From: Oscillospiraceae bacterium
GTDB taxonomy: Bacteria; Bacillota; Clostridia; Oscillospirales; Ruminococcaceae
Length of the DNA: 56,707 nucleotides
NCBI GenBank assembly: GCA_031253495.1
Contig: JAIRWC010000030.1
Coordinates: forward strand, 1 to 56,707
Reading direction: 5' to 3'
Below, piece by piece: positions 46,433 to 56,513 of this stretch (its first letter is position 1; every line of letters begins with the position of its first letter). Made by a program: the position numbers and the translations under genes. The notes beneath the pieces are model-generated. The model searched no databases. It saw only the letters and a program-made list of their open reading frames with translations, and was not told the origin of the DNA.

Positions 46433-47125
46433 ATGAAAAAGTGTATTCGATCCCTCGCGCCGATACTCGTATTAATCCTCACATTCACCGCGTGCGACGC
46501 GGTCAAGGACGCGGTCGGAGACGCCGTAGGCGGCGTCCTTGAAACATCGTCGGCAGGCTCGACGCTCGGCGACACAAATCCCGACGACACAAATCCTTCC
46601 GCCGCCGCAGTTAACGAAGGCGATGTTATTACCTTCGGCGGTGAAAAGTGGATTGTCCTCAAGGTTGAAAGCGGTAAAGCATTGATTGTCAGCGAAATAG
46701 TGCCCGACAACTATTTTTTCCATGATACGGATGAAGCGGTAACATGGGAAAGCTGTTCGCTCCGCGCGTTTCTTAACAACGACTTCTACGGAATGTTCAG
46801 CGCGGAGGACCAAGCGCGCATAGTCGAAACGACCCTCGCAAACTCCGACTATGAATTGAGCGACGGAACCAAAGTTCCCGGCGGCAACAGCACCGCCGAT
46901 AAAATTTTTCTTCTGAGCGCGGAAGAAGCCGAGGAATACTTTAAATATTCCTCCGACAGAAAAGCGAACGCCGCCGACGGCGGTGAAGCTTCTTGGTGGA
47001 CACGGTCAATCGGCGATGCCCCCAACCGCGCAAGATATGTCCAGACCGCGGGAATGATTGGCGGCGGTGTGGGCGTTACCGGTTTAGAGGGCATACGCCC
47101 CTCTATGTGGATAACAATAAATTAA
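46433..47125 (+). CDS. Lipoprotein with DUF6273 domain
   Basis: 230 residues, AAGGAGG ten bases before the ATG. The signal sequence ends LTFTACD, a weak lipobox, so the Cys near residue 21 may be lipidated. After a Thr/Asp/Asn/Pro linker the C-terminal 170 residues follow the DUF6273 pattern: GDVITFGGEKWIVL, ALIVSEIV, VTWESCSLRAFLNNDFY, IFLLSAEEAEEYF, ASWWTRS and a final GIRPSMWI. The function of this domain is unknown; it is common in gut Clostridia. Confidence 0.8.
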   Translation: MKKCIRSLAPILVLILTFTACDAVKDAVGDAVGGVLETSSAGSTLGDTNPDDTNPSAAAVNEGDVITFGGEKWIVLKVESGKALIVSEIVPDNYFFHDTDEAVTWESCSLRAFLNNDFYGMFSAEDQARIVETTLANSDYELSDGTKVPGGNSTADKIFLLSAEEAEEYFKYSSDRKANAADGGEASWWTRSIGDAPNRARYVQTAGMIGGGVGVTGLEGIRPSMWITIN

Positions 47126-49871: not shown

Positions 49872-49919
49872 ACATTCCGCCATGTTGCTGTTGACATTCC
49901 GCCCCGTCTGCCTTATAAT
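49872..49919 (+). promoter_or_regulatory. Promoter of the 1238-residue protein, with direct repeats
   Basis: TTGACA 49891-49896 and TATAAT 49914-49919, spacer 17 bp. ACATTCCGCC occurs at 49872-49881 and 49894-49903, 22 bp apart, the second copy overlapping the -35. This looks like a possible regulator site. Confidence 0.65.
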
Positions 49920-49950
49920 ATATTTAAAAACGCCGCCGGAGGTATACCGT

Positions 49951-52900
49951 ATGAAACCCAACGGATTCAAAATAGCCGCGAAAAGCGCCGACAAGGGCGT
50001 TATGCTCAAATGGGACGAAGTGCCGGGCGCGGACGGTTATCGCGTTTATATGAAAAAAGACGGAGAATTTAAGGGTATACGCAACGTTAAGGAAACTTCA
50101 ATCAAACTGACGGGGCTGGAAAACGGCGAACTTTACACGTTTTTGATAAAAGCGACGAACGGCGGGGCGGCGGCGGCGGAATCCGAACCGGTTTCCTGCG
50201 CGCCCTTGGGCGCGCCCTCGGACTTAACCGCCGAAAGCGGGGACGAAACGGTCTTCCTTTCGTGGGGGGCGGCGGAGAACGCCTATTCGTACCGCGTTTA
50301 CATTTCGGACGGTTCCGAATCGGAGAAGGGCAAATTTTCGGCGTATATGTACTCCGGCGCGGAGAGCTGCGCCGTTCGCGGGCTGAAAAACAAAAAGAAT
50401 TATAAATTTAAGGTGCGCGCCTGCAAATTCGCCGAGGGGACGGAATATTACGGCGGCTTTTCCGGCGTCGTTTCCGCCGTCCCCGCCGAAGACGCGATGG
50501 CCGTAATCCCCGCCCACTTACATATCGAACCGGGGCAAAGGGGCGGCTTTATCTGCGCCGCGCCGGGCGCGTCATGGAAAAGCTCGGACGAAAACGTCGC
50601 GACGGTCGACGGTTTGGGTGCCGTCGTCGGGGTGGGCAACGGTTCCGCCCGCATAACCGTTACGGCGAAAAACGGGAAGACGTCCCACGCCGGCGTTACG
50701 GTCGGGCGCGAAAGCCCAAAATCCCGCGAACCGTTGCCGTTGCCGCGCTATTCCGGGAAAAACGGCGTCTTGTCCCCGCGAAACCACACGGCGAGGATAA
50801 TTATCGCGGGCGACGTCATGTGCCTTTCCGAACAGCAGGAAGCCAAGGGCGCGCGCGGCGACTATTCCGGTTGCTTCGACCCGTCGCGGGAAATTATCGC
50901 CGGGGCGGACTATTCGATAGGGACGCTTGTTTACGAATACTCGCCGAGGAAACCGTCGGCGCGCGACTGCCCGTTCGCGGGGGGCGCGAGGAACTATAAC
51001 GCGCCGCCCGCCTTTATTGAGGCGGTGAGGGGCGCGGGGTTCGACTGCGTCGCGTCGGTTCTGCCCGTTTCGGGGGAAACCGGGAGCGAGCTTATCCGTT
51101 GCGGCGTAAATTATACCGACATAAACGAAAAAGGGCGCGTTATCGCGGAAATCAACGGAATCAAAACGGCTTTCGTAACGTTTAGGTTCGACGGGGCGAC
51201 GGCTGTTTTAAACCCCGCCGACATAGTTTCGGTCAAAAACGAGGGGGCGGATTTTATAATCGCGCTTTGCCGTTGGGGCGTCGCGGATTCCCACATGGTT
51301 CGCGATAATCAGCGGGCGGTCGCGGAACGCCTCGCCGCTTTCGGGGCGGACTGCGTCGTGGGGGGCGGTCCCGGCGTTATTCAAGGGAACGCGGTTTTCA
51401 GCACCGAAGACGGCAGGGACGTTCCCGTGTTTTATTCGCTGGGGAATTTTATCACGTCGGTTTCGGAACTCCCCGCGAACCGCGATTCCTGCTTGCTTTC
51501 CCTAACTTTGCGAAAAGCCCGCCACGACGATTCCGACGCGAAAATCGCGGATATAAAGCTAATCCCCTGCACCGTCGCGGATAACTTCAAAGGCTGCGCT
51601 TATGCCGCCGTGCCGTTGGAGGGCGAAAACGCCCCGGCTTTTTTATCCGCCGTTAAGCGCGTGAACGCGGTTCTCGGCCCGGAATTCGCGTTGCCGCAGG
51701 AAGCCTCGGACGCCGGCGAAACGCTTTCGGCGCGCCCCGAGGGAGAAGAGCCCGAACCCGACGAATCCGACTATACCCCCGCCGCCCCGGAAGAAACGCG
51801 GGCGCGCCTCATCGGTTCCCGCGTGATTGAGGAAATCGTTTCCGAAATGGACGGCGTTACCGTAAGCTCGTCGCTCATCGGCGTATCCGCGCTTACCGTA
51901 ACGGAAATTCCCGAGGTCGGGGACGAATGGCTGATTGTCGATTTTTACGGTGCGGCGACAATCCCGGCGGGCGGCGTCAACCCGTCCGTTAAAGAATCGT
52001 TTTGGAAAGCGAGGATGGACAAATTCACGGAGGCGGTGAAAGCGGCGTATCCGCCCTACCGCGTTATTCTCATAAGCCACAGGCTTAACCGTTTTTACGC
52101 GGTTCAAAAGCAGGTGAGGCTGTTCGGGGAGGCGCCGGGCGACGGCGACCGCGCCACCAAACTTTCAAGGATTATCAAACGGCTGGAGGATTATTTCATT
52201 GAAAAAGTCAACCCCGTCGTTATAGACGTCGCCAAAGAATATTTCGCGGCGGGCGCCGACGCCCCTTGCTACGACTCTTTTTTTTCGGAACACGCGCGGC
52301 GCGTTTTGAACGGGATTTTCAACGGCGAAACCGAACCCGTCCTTTACGCGGACATATGGCTGAAAAGGTATCTGTATTATTATGACAGCCTCGTTTTGAG
52401 GAAACTCTCGCCGTTCGTGCTGAACGACAGGGAATGTGCCGCCGACATTATAGCGGAAAAATCCTCGAAGGAATTTATCCGGGAATATTCCGACGAGTTG
52501 ATTGAGATTAAACAAGCCGGTCTGTCGACGGAAAACGTCTTGGAATTGTCGGGCAGGTACGGCAGGGAGTTCATTAACGGCGTCAAGGCGATTAAAGCCG
52601 CGGCGCAGGGCGATTTTGACGAATCCGGCAAGGTGTTTTCCGTTATGTTCGACCGCTCGTTTGAAATCCTCGGCGAGTTAATCAAGCCCGTTTATAACGG
52701 GATACGCGAGTTTTTCCCCGATTTTGACGCGATAATAACGAAGCAGACGCTGCCGTTTTATTTTAAGCTTCTGCGCTTCGCGAGGAAGGCGAAAGCGGCG
52801 GGCGAGAGCCTTGTCGGCGCGGACGAGGCTTTGAGGGAATATTCGTTTTCTTCCTCTCCGCTCGAGGTGGACGTGTGGGGGACGGAGATATCGTATATTT

Positions 52901-53667
52901 CGGCCATGCTGTGCAATAAGACGGCGGTGAGGAATTATATAGAGAAGAACCCGTTTTGCTGGGCGTTCACCGAGCCCATCGCGCATACCGAAGAGATGTT
53001 CGAGCCCGTCGCGTCGTTCATGGGCAGCGAGGAATACCGCGACGCTTTCAAAAACAGCTTTGACAGAAAGGCGGGCGAAATTATCGCGAACAGCAACAGC
53101 CGCTGGCTTGTCGCGGATTTCTTTGATTTGGCTTATGAAATGGCGGCGTATAAAGGCGGTTTCTTTGAAATAGACGAGTTTACGAGGAGAACCGTGTTTT
53201 TCAACGACATAAAAAAAGAGTGCAAATTTTTCAGGTATTTCAAAAACTATGATAAAGAAACCGCGCAAAAAGCCTTGGACAAGATGATAGACGCCGTCGC
53301 CGGGAAATACGGCGGCAACATCATATTGAACCGCGTCAGCCCCGCGGAATATTACATCGACTTCGACGACGAGGTAAAGCCTTTGTCGGTGGATAAGGAT
53401 TACGTGGAGGGAACCGCCGCGGTTATCGCGGAATGTGAGCGGTATTTTATCGAAAAGACCGATTGCTACGTCATCGATATTTCCGGCTATTTCATGTCGG
53501 ACGAGCGTTATCCGCGCGGGGGCGCGAACATAGGGAATTATGAGGATATGTTCTATAAAAACACCGCGCTGTTCATGTCGAACATATTCAGGGGCAAGGA
53601 CGACGTCAAGGTGTACGACAGGATAAACCCCGTGTACCGGCTGATGAAGATGATTGAGCACGGATAA
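49951..53667 (+). CDS. Multidomain protein: FnIII-FnIII-BIG2, degenerate CapA-like fold, two DUF6270/SGNH-like regions
   Basis: ATG 49951 follows GGAGGT. 1238 residues without signal peptide or membrane segment. Residues 1-87 and 88-180 are fibronectin III domains (KWDEVPGADGYRVYMK; SWGAAENAYSYRVY). Residues 185-252 are BIG2-like (WKSSDENVATVDGLG). Residues 281-585 follow a CapA/PgsA metallophosphatase (GDVM, GADCVVGGGPGV, YSLGNF), but the usual NNH, HWG and GHHPH motifs read LPVSGETG, RWG and GGGPG. After an acidic linker, 617-790 and 970-1215 each resemble DUF6270-type SGNH-like domains, with GSR and GTE in place of GSC. It is probably non-enzymatic as a phosphatase. nspC starts one base after its stop. 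The domain calls after residue 600 are the least certain. Confidence 0.7.
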   Translation: MKPNGFKIAAKSADKGVMLKWDEVPGADGYRVYMKKDGEFKGIRNVKETSIKLTGLENGELYTFLIKATNGGAAAAESEPVSCAPLGAPSDLTAESGDETVFLSWGAAENAYSYRVYISDGSESEKGKFSAYMYSGAESCAVRGLKNKKNYKFKVRACKFAEGTEYYGGFSGVVSAVPAEDAMAVIPAHLHIEPGQRGGFICAAPGASWKSSDENVATVDGLGAVVGVGNGSARITVTAKNGKTSHAGVTVGRESPKSREPLPLPRYSGKNGVLSPRNHTARIIIAGDVMCLSEQQEAKGARGDYSGCFDPSREIIAGADYSIGTLVYEYSPRKPSARDCPFAGGARNYNAPPAFIEAVRGAGFDCVASVLPVSGETGSELIRCGVNYTDINEKGRVIAEINGIKTAFVTFRFDGATAVLNPADIVSVKNEGADFIIALCRWGVADSHMVRDNQRAVAERLAAFGADCVVGGGPGVIQGNAVFSTEDGRDVPVFYSLGNFITSVSELPANRDSCLLSLTLRKARHDDSDAKIADIKLIPCTVADNFKGCAYAAVPLEGENAPAFLSAVKRVNAVLGPEFALPQEASDAGETLSARPEGEEPEPDESDYTPAAPEETRARLIGSRVIEEIVSEMDGVTVSSSLIGVSALTVTEIPEVGDEWLIVDFYGAATIPAGGVNPSVKESFWKARMDKFTEAVKAAYPPYRVILISHRLNRFYAVQKQVRLFGEAPGDGDRATKLSRIIKRLEDYFIEKVNPVVIDVAKEYFAAGADAPCYDSFFSEHARRVLNGIFNGETEPVLYADIWLKRYLYYYDSLVLRKLSPFVLNDRECAADIIAEKSSKEFIREYSDELIEIKQAGLSTENVLELSGRYGREFINGVKAIKAAAQGDFDESGKVFSVMFDRSFEILGELIKPVYNGIREFFPDFDAIITKQTLPFYFKLLRFARKAKAAGESLVGADEALREYSFSSSPLEVDVWGTEISYISAMLCNKTAVRNYIEKNPFCWAFTEPIAHTEEMFEPVASFMGSEEYRDAFKNSFDRKAGEIIANSNSRWLVADFFDLAYEMAAYKGGFFEIDEFTRRTVFFNDIKKECKFFRYFKNYDKETAQKALDKMIDAVAGKYGGNIILNRVSPAEYYIDFDDEVKPLSVDKDYVEGTAAVIAECERYFIEKTDCYVIDISGYFMSDERYPRGGANIGNYEDMFYKNTALFMSNIFRGKDDVKVYDRINPVYRLMKMIEHG

Positions 53668-53668
53668 T

Positions 53669-54796
53669 ATGAATCTCGGAAGCGTATTGAAAAACGTTAA
53701 GACGCCCTGCTACGTTATCGACGAGGCGAGGCTTGTCCGCAACCTCGAAATCCTGCGGCGGCTTGAGGAACGGACGGGATGCCGCGTCCTTTTGGCGCAG
53801 AAAGCCTTCTCGATGTATTCGCTGTACCCGTTAATCAGGAAATACGTTTCCGGCACGGCGGCGAGCGGGTTGTATGAAGCGCGTTTGGGCAGGGAGGAAA
53901 TGGGGGGGGAAGTCCATGTTTTTTCCCCCGCCTACTCCGAAAGCGACTTCGCCGAGCTTGCGGGGATATGCGGGCATATCGTGTTTAACTCGTTCGGGCA
54001 GTGGGAAAAGTTCAAGGGCTCCGTCCCCGCCGGCGTAAGCGCGGGTTTACGCGTCAACCCCGAATATTCCACCCAAGACAAGGCGATTTACGACCCTTGC
54101 GCGCCGTTTTCGCGGTTGGGGGCGACGGCGGAAAGCGTAAGGGGCAAAGACCTTTCGGGAATAGAGGGGTTGCATTTCCACGCGCTGTGCGAACAAAACG
54201 CCGACGCGCTGGAGGCGACGTTTTCCGCCGTTACCGAAAAGTTCGGGTATTTGTTCCCTTATTTGAAATGGATAAACTTCGGCGGGGGGCACCACATTAC
54301 GAAAGAGGGCTACGACCTGCCTTTGTTGGAGAAGTGCGTTAAAAAAGCGCGGGGTTACGGCTTGGCGGTATACCTTGAGCCGGGGGAGGCGTTCGCGCTG
54401 GACGCGGGATATTTGGCGGCGGAAGTCCTCGACGTCGTTCATAACGGCATGGACATAGCCATACTCGACGCTTCCGCCGCCTGCCATATGCCCGACGTGA
54501 TTGAGGCGCCCTACCGCCCTGAAATCGCCGGGGCGGGGAAAGCGGGCGAAAAGGCTTATACCTGCCGTTTGGGCGGGAACACCTGCCTGGCGGGGGACAT
54601 AATAGGCGACTATTCGTTCGACGAAGCGCCGAAGCCGGGCGACCGGGTGATTTTCCTCGACATGGCGATATACACGATGGTGAAGAACAACACCTTCAAC
54701 GGGACGCCTTTGCCGGATATCGCCGTCTTGCGGGAAAACGGCGTCGTTGAAACCGTTAAGCGCTTCGGTTACGGGGATTTTAAAAACAGGCTTTGA
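53669..54796 (+). CDS. nspC: Carboxynorspermidine/carboxyspermidine decarboxylase
   Basis: PLP enzyme of the alanine-racemase-fold decarboxylases that makes norspermidine or spermidine from the carboxy form. 375 residues. The PLP lysine is in LLAQKAFSMYSL; HFHALCEQ, NFGGGHHITKEGYD, YLEPGEAF and GNTCLAGD are family motifs. ATG 53669 is one base after the preceding stop, with a weak ribosome site, so it depends on coupling. The usual partner, carboxyspermidine dehydrogenase, is not adjacent. Confidence 0.9.
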   Translation: MNLGSVLKNVKTPCYVIDEARLVRNLEILRRLEERTGCRVLLAQKAFSMYSLYPLIRKYVSGTAASGLYEARLGREEMGGEVHVFSPAYSESDFAELAGICGHIVFNSFGQWEKFKGSVPAGVSAGLRVNPEYSTQDKAIYDPCAPFSRLGATAESVRGKDLSGIEGLHFHALCEQNADALEATFSAVTEKFGYLFPYLKWINFGGGHHITKEGYDLPLLEKCVKKARGYGLAVYLEPGEAFALDAGYLAAEVLDVVHNGMDIAILDASAACHMPDVIEAPYRPEIAGAGKAGEKAYTCRLGGNTCLAGDIIGDYSFDEAPKPGDRVIFLDMAIYTMVKNNTFNGTPLPDIAVLRENGVVETVKRFGYGDFKNRL

Positions 54797-54819
54797 AAAT
54801 TTTTTTAAAAAACGCCAAT

Positions 54820-54846
54820 AAAACGGCGTTTTTTTTCGTCATGGCA
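54820..54846 (+). terminator. Terminator after nspC
   Basis: AAACGCC (54820-54826) pairs with GGCGTTT (54835-54841) and runs into a T stretch to 54846. Confidence 0.8.
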
Positions 54847-54888
54847 GACGGAAGGGTTTTATCCTTTCAGAAACGGAGGTCCGCCAAG

Positions 54889-55419
54889 GTGAACAACAAT
54901 GAAATTACGGCCGCGCTCGACGCCTTGCGCGGCGGCGACAAAAAAGCGTTTGAAGAACTTTACAACAACTTGCGCGTTCCGGCGTACACGATTATCTACC
55001 GGATTATGTGGGATAAATCGGCGGCGGAAGACATATTGCAGGAGTTTTTTATCAAACTGTATTTTTCGCCGCCCGAACCTTCGGTCAAAAACCCCCGCGC
55101 TTATATTTTCCGAACGGCGCGCAATCTCGCGACGGACGCGCTTCGGAAACGGCAGAAATGCCTTTCGCTCGACGAGATGGAGGACACGGTTCCCGATAAC
55201 GGCCTTTACGGCGCGAACGACTTGAAAATCGCCGTCAACGACGCTTTAAAAAGCCTGCCCGAGGACGAAAGCCAAATCGTTACCCTGCGCGCCATGGGGG
55301 AGCTGAAATTCCGCGAGATTTCCGAAATTATGAAAATCCCGCTCGGGACGGCGCTCTGGAAGTATCAAAAAGCGATAGGCAAACTGAAAAAAATACTCGA
55401 AGGAGAAGATGCGTTATGA
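54889..55419 (+). CDS. ECF-type RNA polymerase sigma factor (second)
   Basis: GTG 54889 has GGAGG (54875-54879) nine bases upstream; an in-frame ATG 32 codons earlier would start before the nspC terminator and is rejected. 176 residues. Region 2: LYNNLRVPAYTIIYRIMWDKSAAEDILQEFF in parts; region 4: LPEDESQIVTLRAMGELKFREISEIMKIPLGTALWK in parts. It is ATGA-coupled to a membrane protein, its likely regulator. No ECF promoter motif was identified. Confidence 0.87.
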   Translation: MNNNEITAALDALRGGDKKAFEELYNNLRVPAYTIIYRIMWDKSAAEDILQEFFIKLYFSPPEPSVKNPRAYIFRTARNLATDALRKRQKCLSLDEMEDTVPDNGLYGANDLKIAVNDALKSLPEDESQIVTLRAMGELKFREISEIMKIPLGTALWKYQKAIGKLKKILEGEDAL

Positions 55420-56513
55420 AAAAATTATCGTCATTATTTTTCGCGGCCGTTATGGGGTTAAGCCTGTCGGCGGGCGTTCACGCGGGGACGGAGGCTTCGG
55501 AAACCGATTATTTCGTCATACCCGCCGACCCCGCCGGAATCGCCGACCCCGCCGGAATCGCCGCGCCCGCCGGAATCACCACGCAAATCATAGACGTCGA
55601 AGACGTCGAACCCGTAAAAGACGAACCGTTCGCCGAGGACGGCGAATCCGAAGAAACCGCGCCGCCCGCTCCCCTTGAAGACGGCGACCCCTACGACGAC
55701 TGCGTTCAAGGACAGGGGACGGTTAAAAACCCCGAAGAATATTGGGATAAGAACGGTTACCCCGATTACGTCTCATGGGTTTGGGAGGTGTTTTTCATGA
55801 CATCTTCCGACGGAACGGCGCCGGGGACGAGCGGGAGTTACTGGGAAATAGGCGTCGTCGCTTCCGAATCCGACAGGGGCAAACAGGAAATAATCGAGTT
55901 GCTTTCGCCGGAATGTTATATGAAGTTTTTCGACGACGACTATTCTTACAACTATCGCGAGGAAGTCTATAAGGCGATTGCCCTCGATTGGGAAACCGAC
56001 CGGAATATTCTGGGCGTTTACGCGTCGAAGTTCGCCGCTACGATTACGGTCGTCTTGGCTGACGATTGCCCGTATGAGGAATACGCGGACCGATTTGGCG
56101 CGAAGTACGGTCCGTTCGTCTTGACGAAGGTGGAGGCGGAAGGCGGCGCCGACATGGGTTATGACGGAGGCGGGGCGCCGGGGGGAATTATCGTCGAGGG
56201 GGGCGACGGCCGCGAGATAGCGATAACCGGCGGCGGCGAGCAAATATTGTCGCCCGTTATCGGAGTAGACGCGCCCGCGAACCGCTCCGCGCTGTTATGG
56301 TCCGCGTTGGCCTGCGGCGTAATCCTTATCGGGACGGCTTTGACCGTTTTAATAAGGCAAAGACGGCGGGCGAAGCAAACAAACACGGGCGCCGTTATCG
56401 CGGCGGGAGAAAAAATGAGCGGCAAACAGGTGTTCGACGCGGTTAAAGAAAGCGCCGTAACCCCGTCGGACGAGCTGTTCGGCAAAATTATGGAACGGAT
56501 AGAGAAAAGATAA
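55416..56513 (+). CDS. Sigma-coupled membrane protein with outside N-domain and cytoplasmic tail
   Basis: 365 residues. A signal peptide (1-24, LFFAAVMGLSLSAGVHA) is followed by a Pro/Ala repeat (ADPAGIADPAGIAAPAGI), an acidic linker and an extracellular domain of about 200 residues, one membrane segment (about 290-312, ALLWSALACGVILIGTALTV) and a basic cytoplasmic tail of 50 residues ending SDELFGKIMERIEKR. No family recognised. The layout suggests an anti-sigma role, but the topology (N outside, C inside) is opposite to common anti-sigma factors. Confidence 0.7.
   Translation: MKKLSSLFFAAVMGLSLSAGVHAGTEASETDYFVIPADPAGIADPAGIAAPAGITTQIIDVEDVEPVKDEPFAEDGESEETAPPAPLEDGDPYDDCVQGQGTVKNPEEYWDKNGYPDYVSWVWEVFFMTSSDGTAPGTSGSYWEIGVVASESDRGKQEIIELLSPECYMKFFDDDYSYNYREEVYKAIALDWETDRNILGVYASKFAATITVVLADDCPYEEYADRFGAKYGPFVLTKVEAEGGADMGYDGGGAPGGIIVEGGDGREIAITGGGEQILSPVIGVDAPANRSALLWSALACGVILIGTALTVLIRQRRRAKQTNTGAVIAAGEKMSGKQVFDAVKESAVTPSDELFGKIMERIEKR

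Follow-up and report, generated by a model that had tools for sequence, protein, structure and literature searches.

The contig JAIRWC010000030.1 of an Oscillospiraceae gut bacterium (GenBank assembly GCA_031253495.1), here called the window and analysed over its whole length of 56,707 nucleotides, encodes a large protein that combines two FnIII domains, a BIG2 domain, a CapA-like domain and two DUF6270-like repeats. It is well supported by its sequence that this protein is a pseudoenzyme, in which two predicted active sites have lost their characteristic residues. That it acts as a conserved, probably cytoplasmic and doubly inactivated protein by binding or scaffolding in the assembly of a surface polymer or pilus has, in our estimate, roughly an even chance of being correct, and the partner and the ligand considered below are candidates.

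Domain architecture and loss of both active sites

The initial annotation of the window, made without database searches, had proposed two FnIII domains, a BIG2 domain and a CapA-like fold that has kept its scaffold and lost the expected histidines, and both proposals hold. Pfam identifies fn3, Big_2 and PGA_cap (Table 1), the last with 83.3 bits at a cut-off of 27, and the protein has the calcineurin-like fold and the GD and YSLGNF framework of the PGA_cap family (CapA/PgsA; PF09587), to which the lasso-peptide epimerase MslH (8gq9, 8ith) belongs. It differs from this family in that no membrane anchor is seen and in its fusion to FnIII, BIG2 and DUF6270-like parts, and the MslH equivalog (NF038314) scores only 20.1 bits in the window protein, at a cut-off of 700.

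The two tandem regions at the C-terminus had been likened to DUF6270 (PF19786), and this likeness is recovered via homologs. The DUF6270 profile has no match in the window protein or elsewhere in its own genome, yet it is matched by 20 of the 26 family members in the alignment (E up to 0.01). In hhalign comparisons with intact homologs the proteins of the window's type (clade Q) reach a probability of 99.9 for the first region and of 100 (E=3.7e-65) for the second repeat; repeats 1 and 2 of the intact homologs align with each other (probability 98.7, E=2.7e-16), and the negative control, CapA against repeat 2, gives a probability of 0. By these alignments the C-terminal regions are homologous to DUF6270 through intermediate sequences; the predicted structure of the second repeat has a pLDDT of only 35.7. 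That no named protein is known to have this architecture agrees with searches of open-access PMC papers, among which none mentions DUF6270 and none combines PGA_cap with fibronectin type III.

Table 1. Features of the gene, its promoter and its downstream neighbour (window positions)
Feature	Position	Strand	Basis or remark
Consensus sigma-A-type promoter, TTGACA-17-TATAAT	49891..49919	+	12/12 match
Gene of the predicted FnIII-FnIII-BIG2-CapA-DUF6270x2 pseudoenzyme	49951..53667	+	Open reading frame of 1238 aa
Two FnIII domains, ~residues 2-175	49954..50475	+	Pfam fn3, E=2.1e-14, two stretches, best 2-82; limits of the second judged by eye
BIG2 domain, ~residues 181-255	50491..50715	+	Pfam Big_2, E=2.7e-5, residues 209-244; outer limits judged by eye
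CapA/PGA_cap calcineurin-like domain, ~residues 280-545	50788..51585	+	PGA_cap, E=2.5e-23
LPVSGETG, residues 371-378, in place of NNHNCDTG	51061..51084	+	Alignment to intact homologs
RWG, residues 441-443, in place of HWG	51271..51279	+	Alignment to intact homologs
GGGPG, residues 471-475, in place of GSHPH	51361..51375	+	Alignment to intact homologs
First DUF6270-like repeat, ~residues 613-800	51787..52350	+	Cys missing at the GSC position in all 26 aligned full-length members
Second DUF6270-like repeat, ~residues 961-1216	52831..53598	+	hhalign to intact homologs, probability 100; dN/dS 0.08 vs nearest ortholog
GTEIS, residues 977-981, in place of GSC(V/I)(S/T)	52879..52893	+	Alignment to intact homologs
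GGANIGN, residues 1190-1196, in place of GGAHIVH	53518..53538	+	Alignment to intact homologs
nspC, carboxynorspermidine decarboxylase	53669..54796	+	NCBIfam nspC, 467.9 bits, cut-off 409.05

In the CapA domain, Asn and His of the NNH motif are replaced by Pro and Val, His of HWG by Arg, and both His of SHPH by Gly, i.e. the conserved catalytic and metal residues (E, NNH, HWG, SHPH) are gone and Asp D288 of the GD motif is the sole survivor. For MslH, a solved PGA_cap member, the cited part of the structural study (PMC10406935) describes Ca(II) as held by Glu44, Asn87, His259 and His261 and names Asp11, His88, Asp91 and His295 as catalytic residues; replacement of Asp11, Glu44, Asn87, His88, Asp91 or His295 abolished the activity and replacement of His259 or His261 diminished it. 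The NNH motif and the last His of SHPH can be placed on MslH by alignment, showing that counterparts of Asn87, His88 and His295 are missing, and by the remaining, inferred equivalences those of Glu44, His259 and His261 would be missing as well. The same genome also encodes an ordinary CapA protein with intact ligands and a transmembrane-like segment.

Judged by its sequence, the second DUF6270-like repeat is dead, too, which the initial annotation had overlooked. The intact homologs carry GSC(V/I)(S/T)R and GGAHIVHYE, whereas the window protein, having lost both the GSC and the GGAH motif, reads GTEIS and GGANIGNYE. In the polysaccharide-biosynthesis protein WcbI, according to the cited part of its description (PMC4104973), Cys14 and His201 hold acetyl-CoA, and an acetyltransferase activity could not be demonstrated by its authors. 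The likeness to WcbI is one of analogy only: the intact homologs have a GSC...GGAH pair, and the window protein has an equivalent of neither the Cys nor the His.

Orthologs, selection and cellular location

A scan of the named genomes with a three-row alignment recovered only two orthologs, in genomes G041 (75% identity) and G020 (57-60% identity), and both show the same losses at the CapA site and in the second repeat. The gene is under purifying selection. With G041, the nearest ortholog, as reference, dN/dS (Nei-Gojobori, custom script) is 0.20 overall, 0.35 for the FnIII domains, 0.22 for BIG2, 0.22 for CapA, 0.30 for the first repeat, 0.09 for the middle part, 0.08 for the second repeat and 0.42 for the linker; in the comparison with G020, saturation of the synonymous sites is complete or nearly complete. 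There is no internal stop codon across the three species. Ten of the 14 replaced positions examined, which do not include the kept D288, show the same residue in all three orthologs (Y328, V373, E376, R441, G472, G473, G475, T978, S981 and N1196) and four differ in one ortholog (P372, S374, E979 and N1193).

The suggestion of a non-catalytic role under selection is supported by the losses common to both orthologs, the purifying dN/dS, the retained promoter and the lack of a visible export signal. The existence of homologs that share the architecture and have intact ligands had been named in advance as the case that would make this copy merely decayed. Such homologs exist, but they do not imply mere decay because several species have the losses in common and the protein continues to be under constraint.

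For the cellular location, the highest hydropathy over 13 residues was determined within the first 70 residues, or within the first 120 for ordinary CapA proteins. No signal-like N-terminal stretch was found in clade Q (3 proteins), in the intact copies (clade A, 11) or in a second dead clade (B, 12), the maxima being 0.69, 1.68 and 1.25, i.e. clade Q shows neither the export signal nor the membrane anchor of PGA_cap/CapA proteins, in line with the earlier statement that no export signal is visible. Three of four ordinary CapA proteins reach 2.82 to 3.11 and the fourth 1.05. Among ten short proteins with two DUF6270-like repeats the highest value in the first 70 residues is 2.34, perhaps due to a start called too early, and one or more of them may carry a signal; because of this value we restrict the statement on missing signals to Q, A and B. 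The neighbour proteins encoded beside CapA-DUF6270 genes (n=6) range from 1.02 to 2.32, and eight of their 13 homologs elsewhere have a strong N-terminal stretch (2.18-3.23) and five have none (0.79-1.63). Cysteine content was dropped as a cytoplasmic marker, as its values overlap between the groups. By its N-terminal sequence the pseudoenzyme is probably cytoplasmic.

Intact, partly dead and dead family members

Searching 71 genomes of the window's genus with residues 262-1238 gave matches in 18 (E up to 1e-45), and from combined searches, one of them over 60 genomes, clade A is present in at least 12 genomes, clade B in at least 15, both together in at least 9 and clade Q in 3; the A and B counts are lower bounds, part of the genomes being incomplete. 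When an intact homolog served as query, a family sample of 297 genomes gave matches in 6 (E up to 1e-40, the window's own genome included), representing 2 of 126 genera, and in the sister genus g94 matches occur in 36 of 43 genomes (E up to 1e-20). A class sample yields matches in 46 of 391 genomes (E up to 1e-15), again with the own genome, beyond which the matches listed, with at most two candidates scored per genome, cover the CapA part only. Among the sampled genomes, intact homologs of the same architecture are confined to the window's genus and this sister genus; the search for the same domain order and for shared losses, proposed in the initial annotation, found the order in two genera and the losses in both orthologs. 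Shorter proteins that have the two repeats without CapA also exist, most of them with an FnIII-like start; in five of the ten aligned GSC and GGAH are kept and in five they are lost.

The state of the sites was scored in 61 homologs, after two truncated rows and the truncated L087 had been dropped and two partial g94 genes excluded, and the CapA site was judged on six residues. CapA site and Cys are both intact in 25 homologs and both lost in 25, the Cys alone is lost in 10 and the CapA site alone in one; the Cys/His pair is lost together in 32, kept in 25 and mixed in 4. The losses are recurrent, requiring at the fewest five changes on the tree for CapA, seven for the Cys and seven for the His. 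In clade B the replacements differ from those of the window protein and vary at most of the same columns. A single loss shared by Q and B and two separate losses are both compatible with the trees: approximately unbiased (AU) tests gave p 0.649 with Q and B held together and 0.66 with B and A held together, Q and A are already grouped on one side of an unsupported branch, and in a larger, unrooted tree long branches meet.

Gene neighbourhoods of the relatives

In all three genomes of the window's genus with an A copy and no B copy found (loci L049, L052 and L135) the gene lies beside genes for a transglutaminase-like lipoprotein, PilC (T2SSF) and a PilT-like protein (T2SSE). Examination of 18 of the 36 gene-bearing g94 genomes revealed the lipoprotein in 16 and PilC in 15, while the contigs that lack them measure 4.3 to 6.1 kb, and PilT in all four loci with long flanks; dead copies in g94 retain their place within this pilus-like gene row. 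No pilus-like genes were found within the available flanks of nine A loci of genomes with A and B, of 15 B loci and of the loci of both orthologs. A protein of about 600 residues, weakly similar to D-glucuronyl C5-epimerase and slightly under the cut-off, is often encoded upstream, for B copies directly upstream in 15 of 15 cases. It is absent at L139, L140, L166, L170 and L172, five loci of g94 whose upstream sequence extends over about 3 kb or more; all of them have lost the Cys, and they may be close kin. Neither capB nor capC was recognised among the annotated neighbours, and no genome-wide search for them was made.

At L138-L141, L135, L049 and L052 the row is compact and often comprises genes for the epimerase-like protein, CapA-DUF6270, the transglutaminase lipoprotein, PilC (T2SSF), about four small pilin-like proteins and a PilT-like ATPase (T2SSE); the "pilin-like" proteins are so named from their position and N-termini alone, and Pfam gives nothing clear for them. 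Related fusions (L128:1030-4407, L131:4390-7725, L130:7783-10254) combine an epimerase-like domain with a GT4 glycosyltransferase, in a setting of pilus-like genes, and a CapA domain with LicD. The window's genome encodes a paralog of the epimerase-like protein (G000:C32:44703-46394, L126) with a strongly hydrophobic N-terminal stretch (2.90). The short proteins with two DUF6270-like repeats adjoin a ZnuA/ABC-3/ABC/FUR cluster at nine of ten loci (L031, L032, L035, L039, L048, L055, L058, L062 and L064; identified by Pfam in L031 only), which suggests a link with zinc uptake.

Possible functions

Based on these findings we propose that the intact state is ancestral, i.e. that an ancestor with the same domain order would have been active at two places: at a metal-dependent, calcineurin-like CapA site, and in the second DUF6270-like repeat through a Cys/His site, perhaps with an acyl-CoA as its substrate, as is conceivable for WcbI. 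The window's lineage has at both places residues from which that chemistry is not expected, and its scaffold has remained under selection, strongest in the middle part and in the dead second repeat. The most likely function would then be binding through those surfaces without modification of the ligand, for which a precursor of a surface polymer, an enzyme acting as partner and a part of the pilus assembly are candidates; a polymer or glycan is suggested by the domain types and the neighbours of the relatives, and the connection with surface-polymer or pilus assembly by the gene row of the sister genus. As described in the cited part of the literature, a metallophosphoesterase fold can act as scaffold, e.g. 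in VPS29 (PMC9636581). VPS29 and GAP50, metallophosphatase folds that serve as scaffold or anchor, are eukaryotic and come from an unrelated context, no sequence similarity to them being claimed, and the cited text on GAP50 does not state that it is inactive.

Several points weigh against this reading. Striking as it is in the counts, the joint loss of the two sites does not reach significance in tests on independent pairs (median p 0.25 and 0.125), and L049, one of the 12 copies called intact, has Arg at the His of GGAH. The window's own genome, of 98% completeness, lacks both an intact partner (no DUF6270 match) and an operon-type PilC, its single PilC being a distant one with 22% identity, and because of these two absences the context of the relatives may not carry over to the window. 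Moreover, binding and inactivity are predictions drawn from sequence, and the substituted residues are themselves mostly conserved, which is also compatible with a new active site.

This last point leads to the main rival, a repurposed enzyme whose old centres were rebuilt, e.g. into an anion-binding site of Arg441 and the glycine loop 471-475, or into one in which Thr978, Glu979 or Tyr982 performs new chemistry with Asn1193. The ten invariant replacements and the strong constraint on the second repeat, which together with the middle part has the lowest dN/dS, speak for it, but the CapA domain retains no metal-binding set, conserved positions are not rare in this domain (146 of 299 residues are identical in all three orthologs), and the different and variable replacements in clade B argue against one new chemistry family-wide, so that we regard it as unlikely. 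A broader version of the scaffold reading, which we hold to be possible and rather doubtful, is that the lasting job of the whole family is non-catalytic: a two-site surface-polymer enzyme might have taken on a structural or binding function within a small assembly system resembling type IV pili, its sites then becoming dispensable and being lost repeatedly, in the window's lineage completely, leaving a pure scaffold.

FnIII, BIG2 and CapA domains are usually extracellular, and the protein might instead be exported by a non-Sec route, perhaps via a type IV pilus-like machine, and bind glycan outside the cell. The PilC/PilT-like and lipoprotein genes next to the sister-genus gene would fit such a route, and cysteine content is no guide to inside versus outside, as neighbour homologs without a strong stretch span 0.45% to 2.77%. 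Export nevertheless appears improbable given the lack of a signal-like stretch in Q, A and B, the missing operon-type PilC in the window's genome, and the fusion of a relative's CapA domain to LicD, which acts in the cytoplasm. A regulatory partner that pairs with an active paralog is suggested by the co-occurrence of intact A and dead B in at least 9 of the genus's 71 genomes; neither an intact copy nor a match to DUF6270 was found in the three Q genomes, one of them 85% complete, or in three further genomes with dead B (G039, G065 and G067), making this very improbable, and an obligate pair of enzyme and pseudoenzyme is rejected for the window's lineage on the same absence of an intact copy. 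Least probable of all is a decaying gene, for which the small genome of 1.67 Mb might speak; the overall dN/dS, the open frame in three species, the shared losses and the perfect promoter stand against it, and by the dN/dS and the shared losses it is rejected as far as sequence can do so.

The label "capsule synthesis protein" would mislead for such proteins. In this family one large multidomain protein occurs in a natural series within two genera, with intact, partly dead and fully dead members, and the fully dead form, being under selection, provides a route to test which roles CapA-type and DUF6270-type domains have besides catalysis.

Gene, promoter and direct neighbours

The window holds four exact TTGACA/TATAAT sites (spacer 15-19), one of which is the promoter of the pseudoenzyme gene; identical hexamers with a 17-base spacer lie upstream of the gene in both orthologs, i.e. 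the promoter is perfect in three of three genes. Since this promoter and a GGAGG at 49938-49942 point to the ATG at 49951, the latter was taken as start, and an alternative in-frame ATG at 49882, upstream of the promoter, was rejected. The ATG of nspC follows one base past the stop codon. The next downstream gene is also nspC in ortholog G020 (locus L029) and a MetH-like gene in ortholog G041. The window's own neighbours are uninformative on the ligand of the pseudoenzyme, and PADLOC, with two proteins examined, gave no match to anti-phage defence. Elsewhere in the window, 54793-56513 encodes an ECF-type sigma factor and, after it, a protein that has short DPAGI-like repeats and no Pfam match and is possibly its regulator, and 46433-47125 encodes a lipoprotein-like protein bearing a DUF6273 domain.

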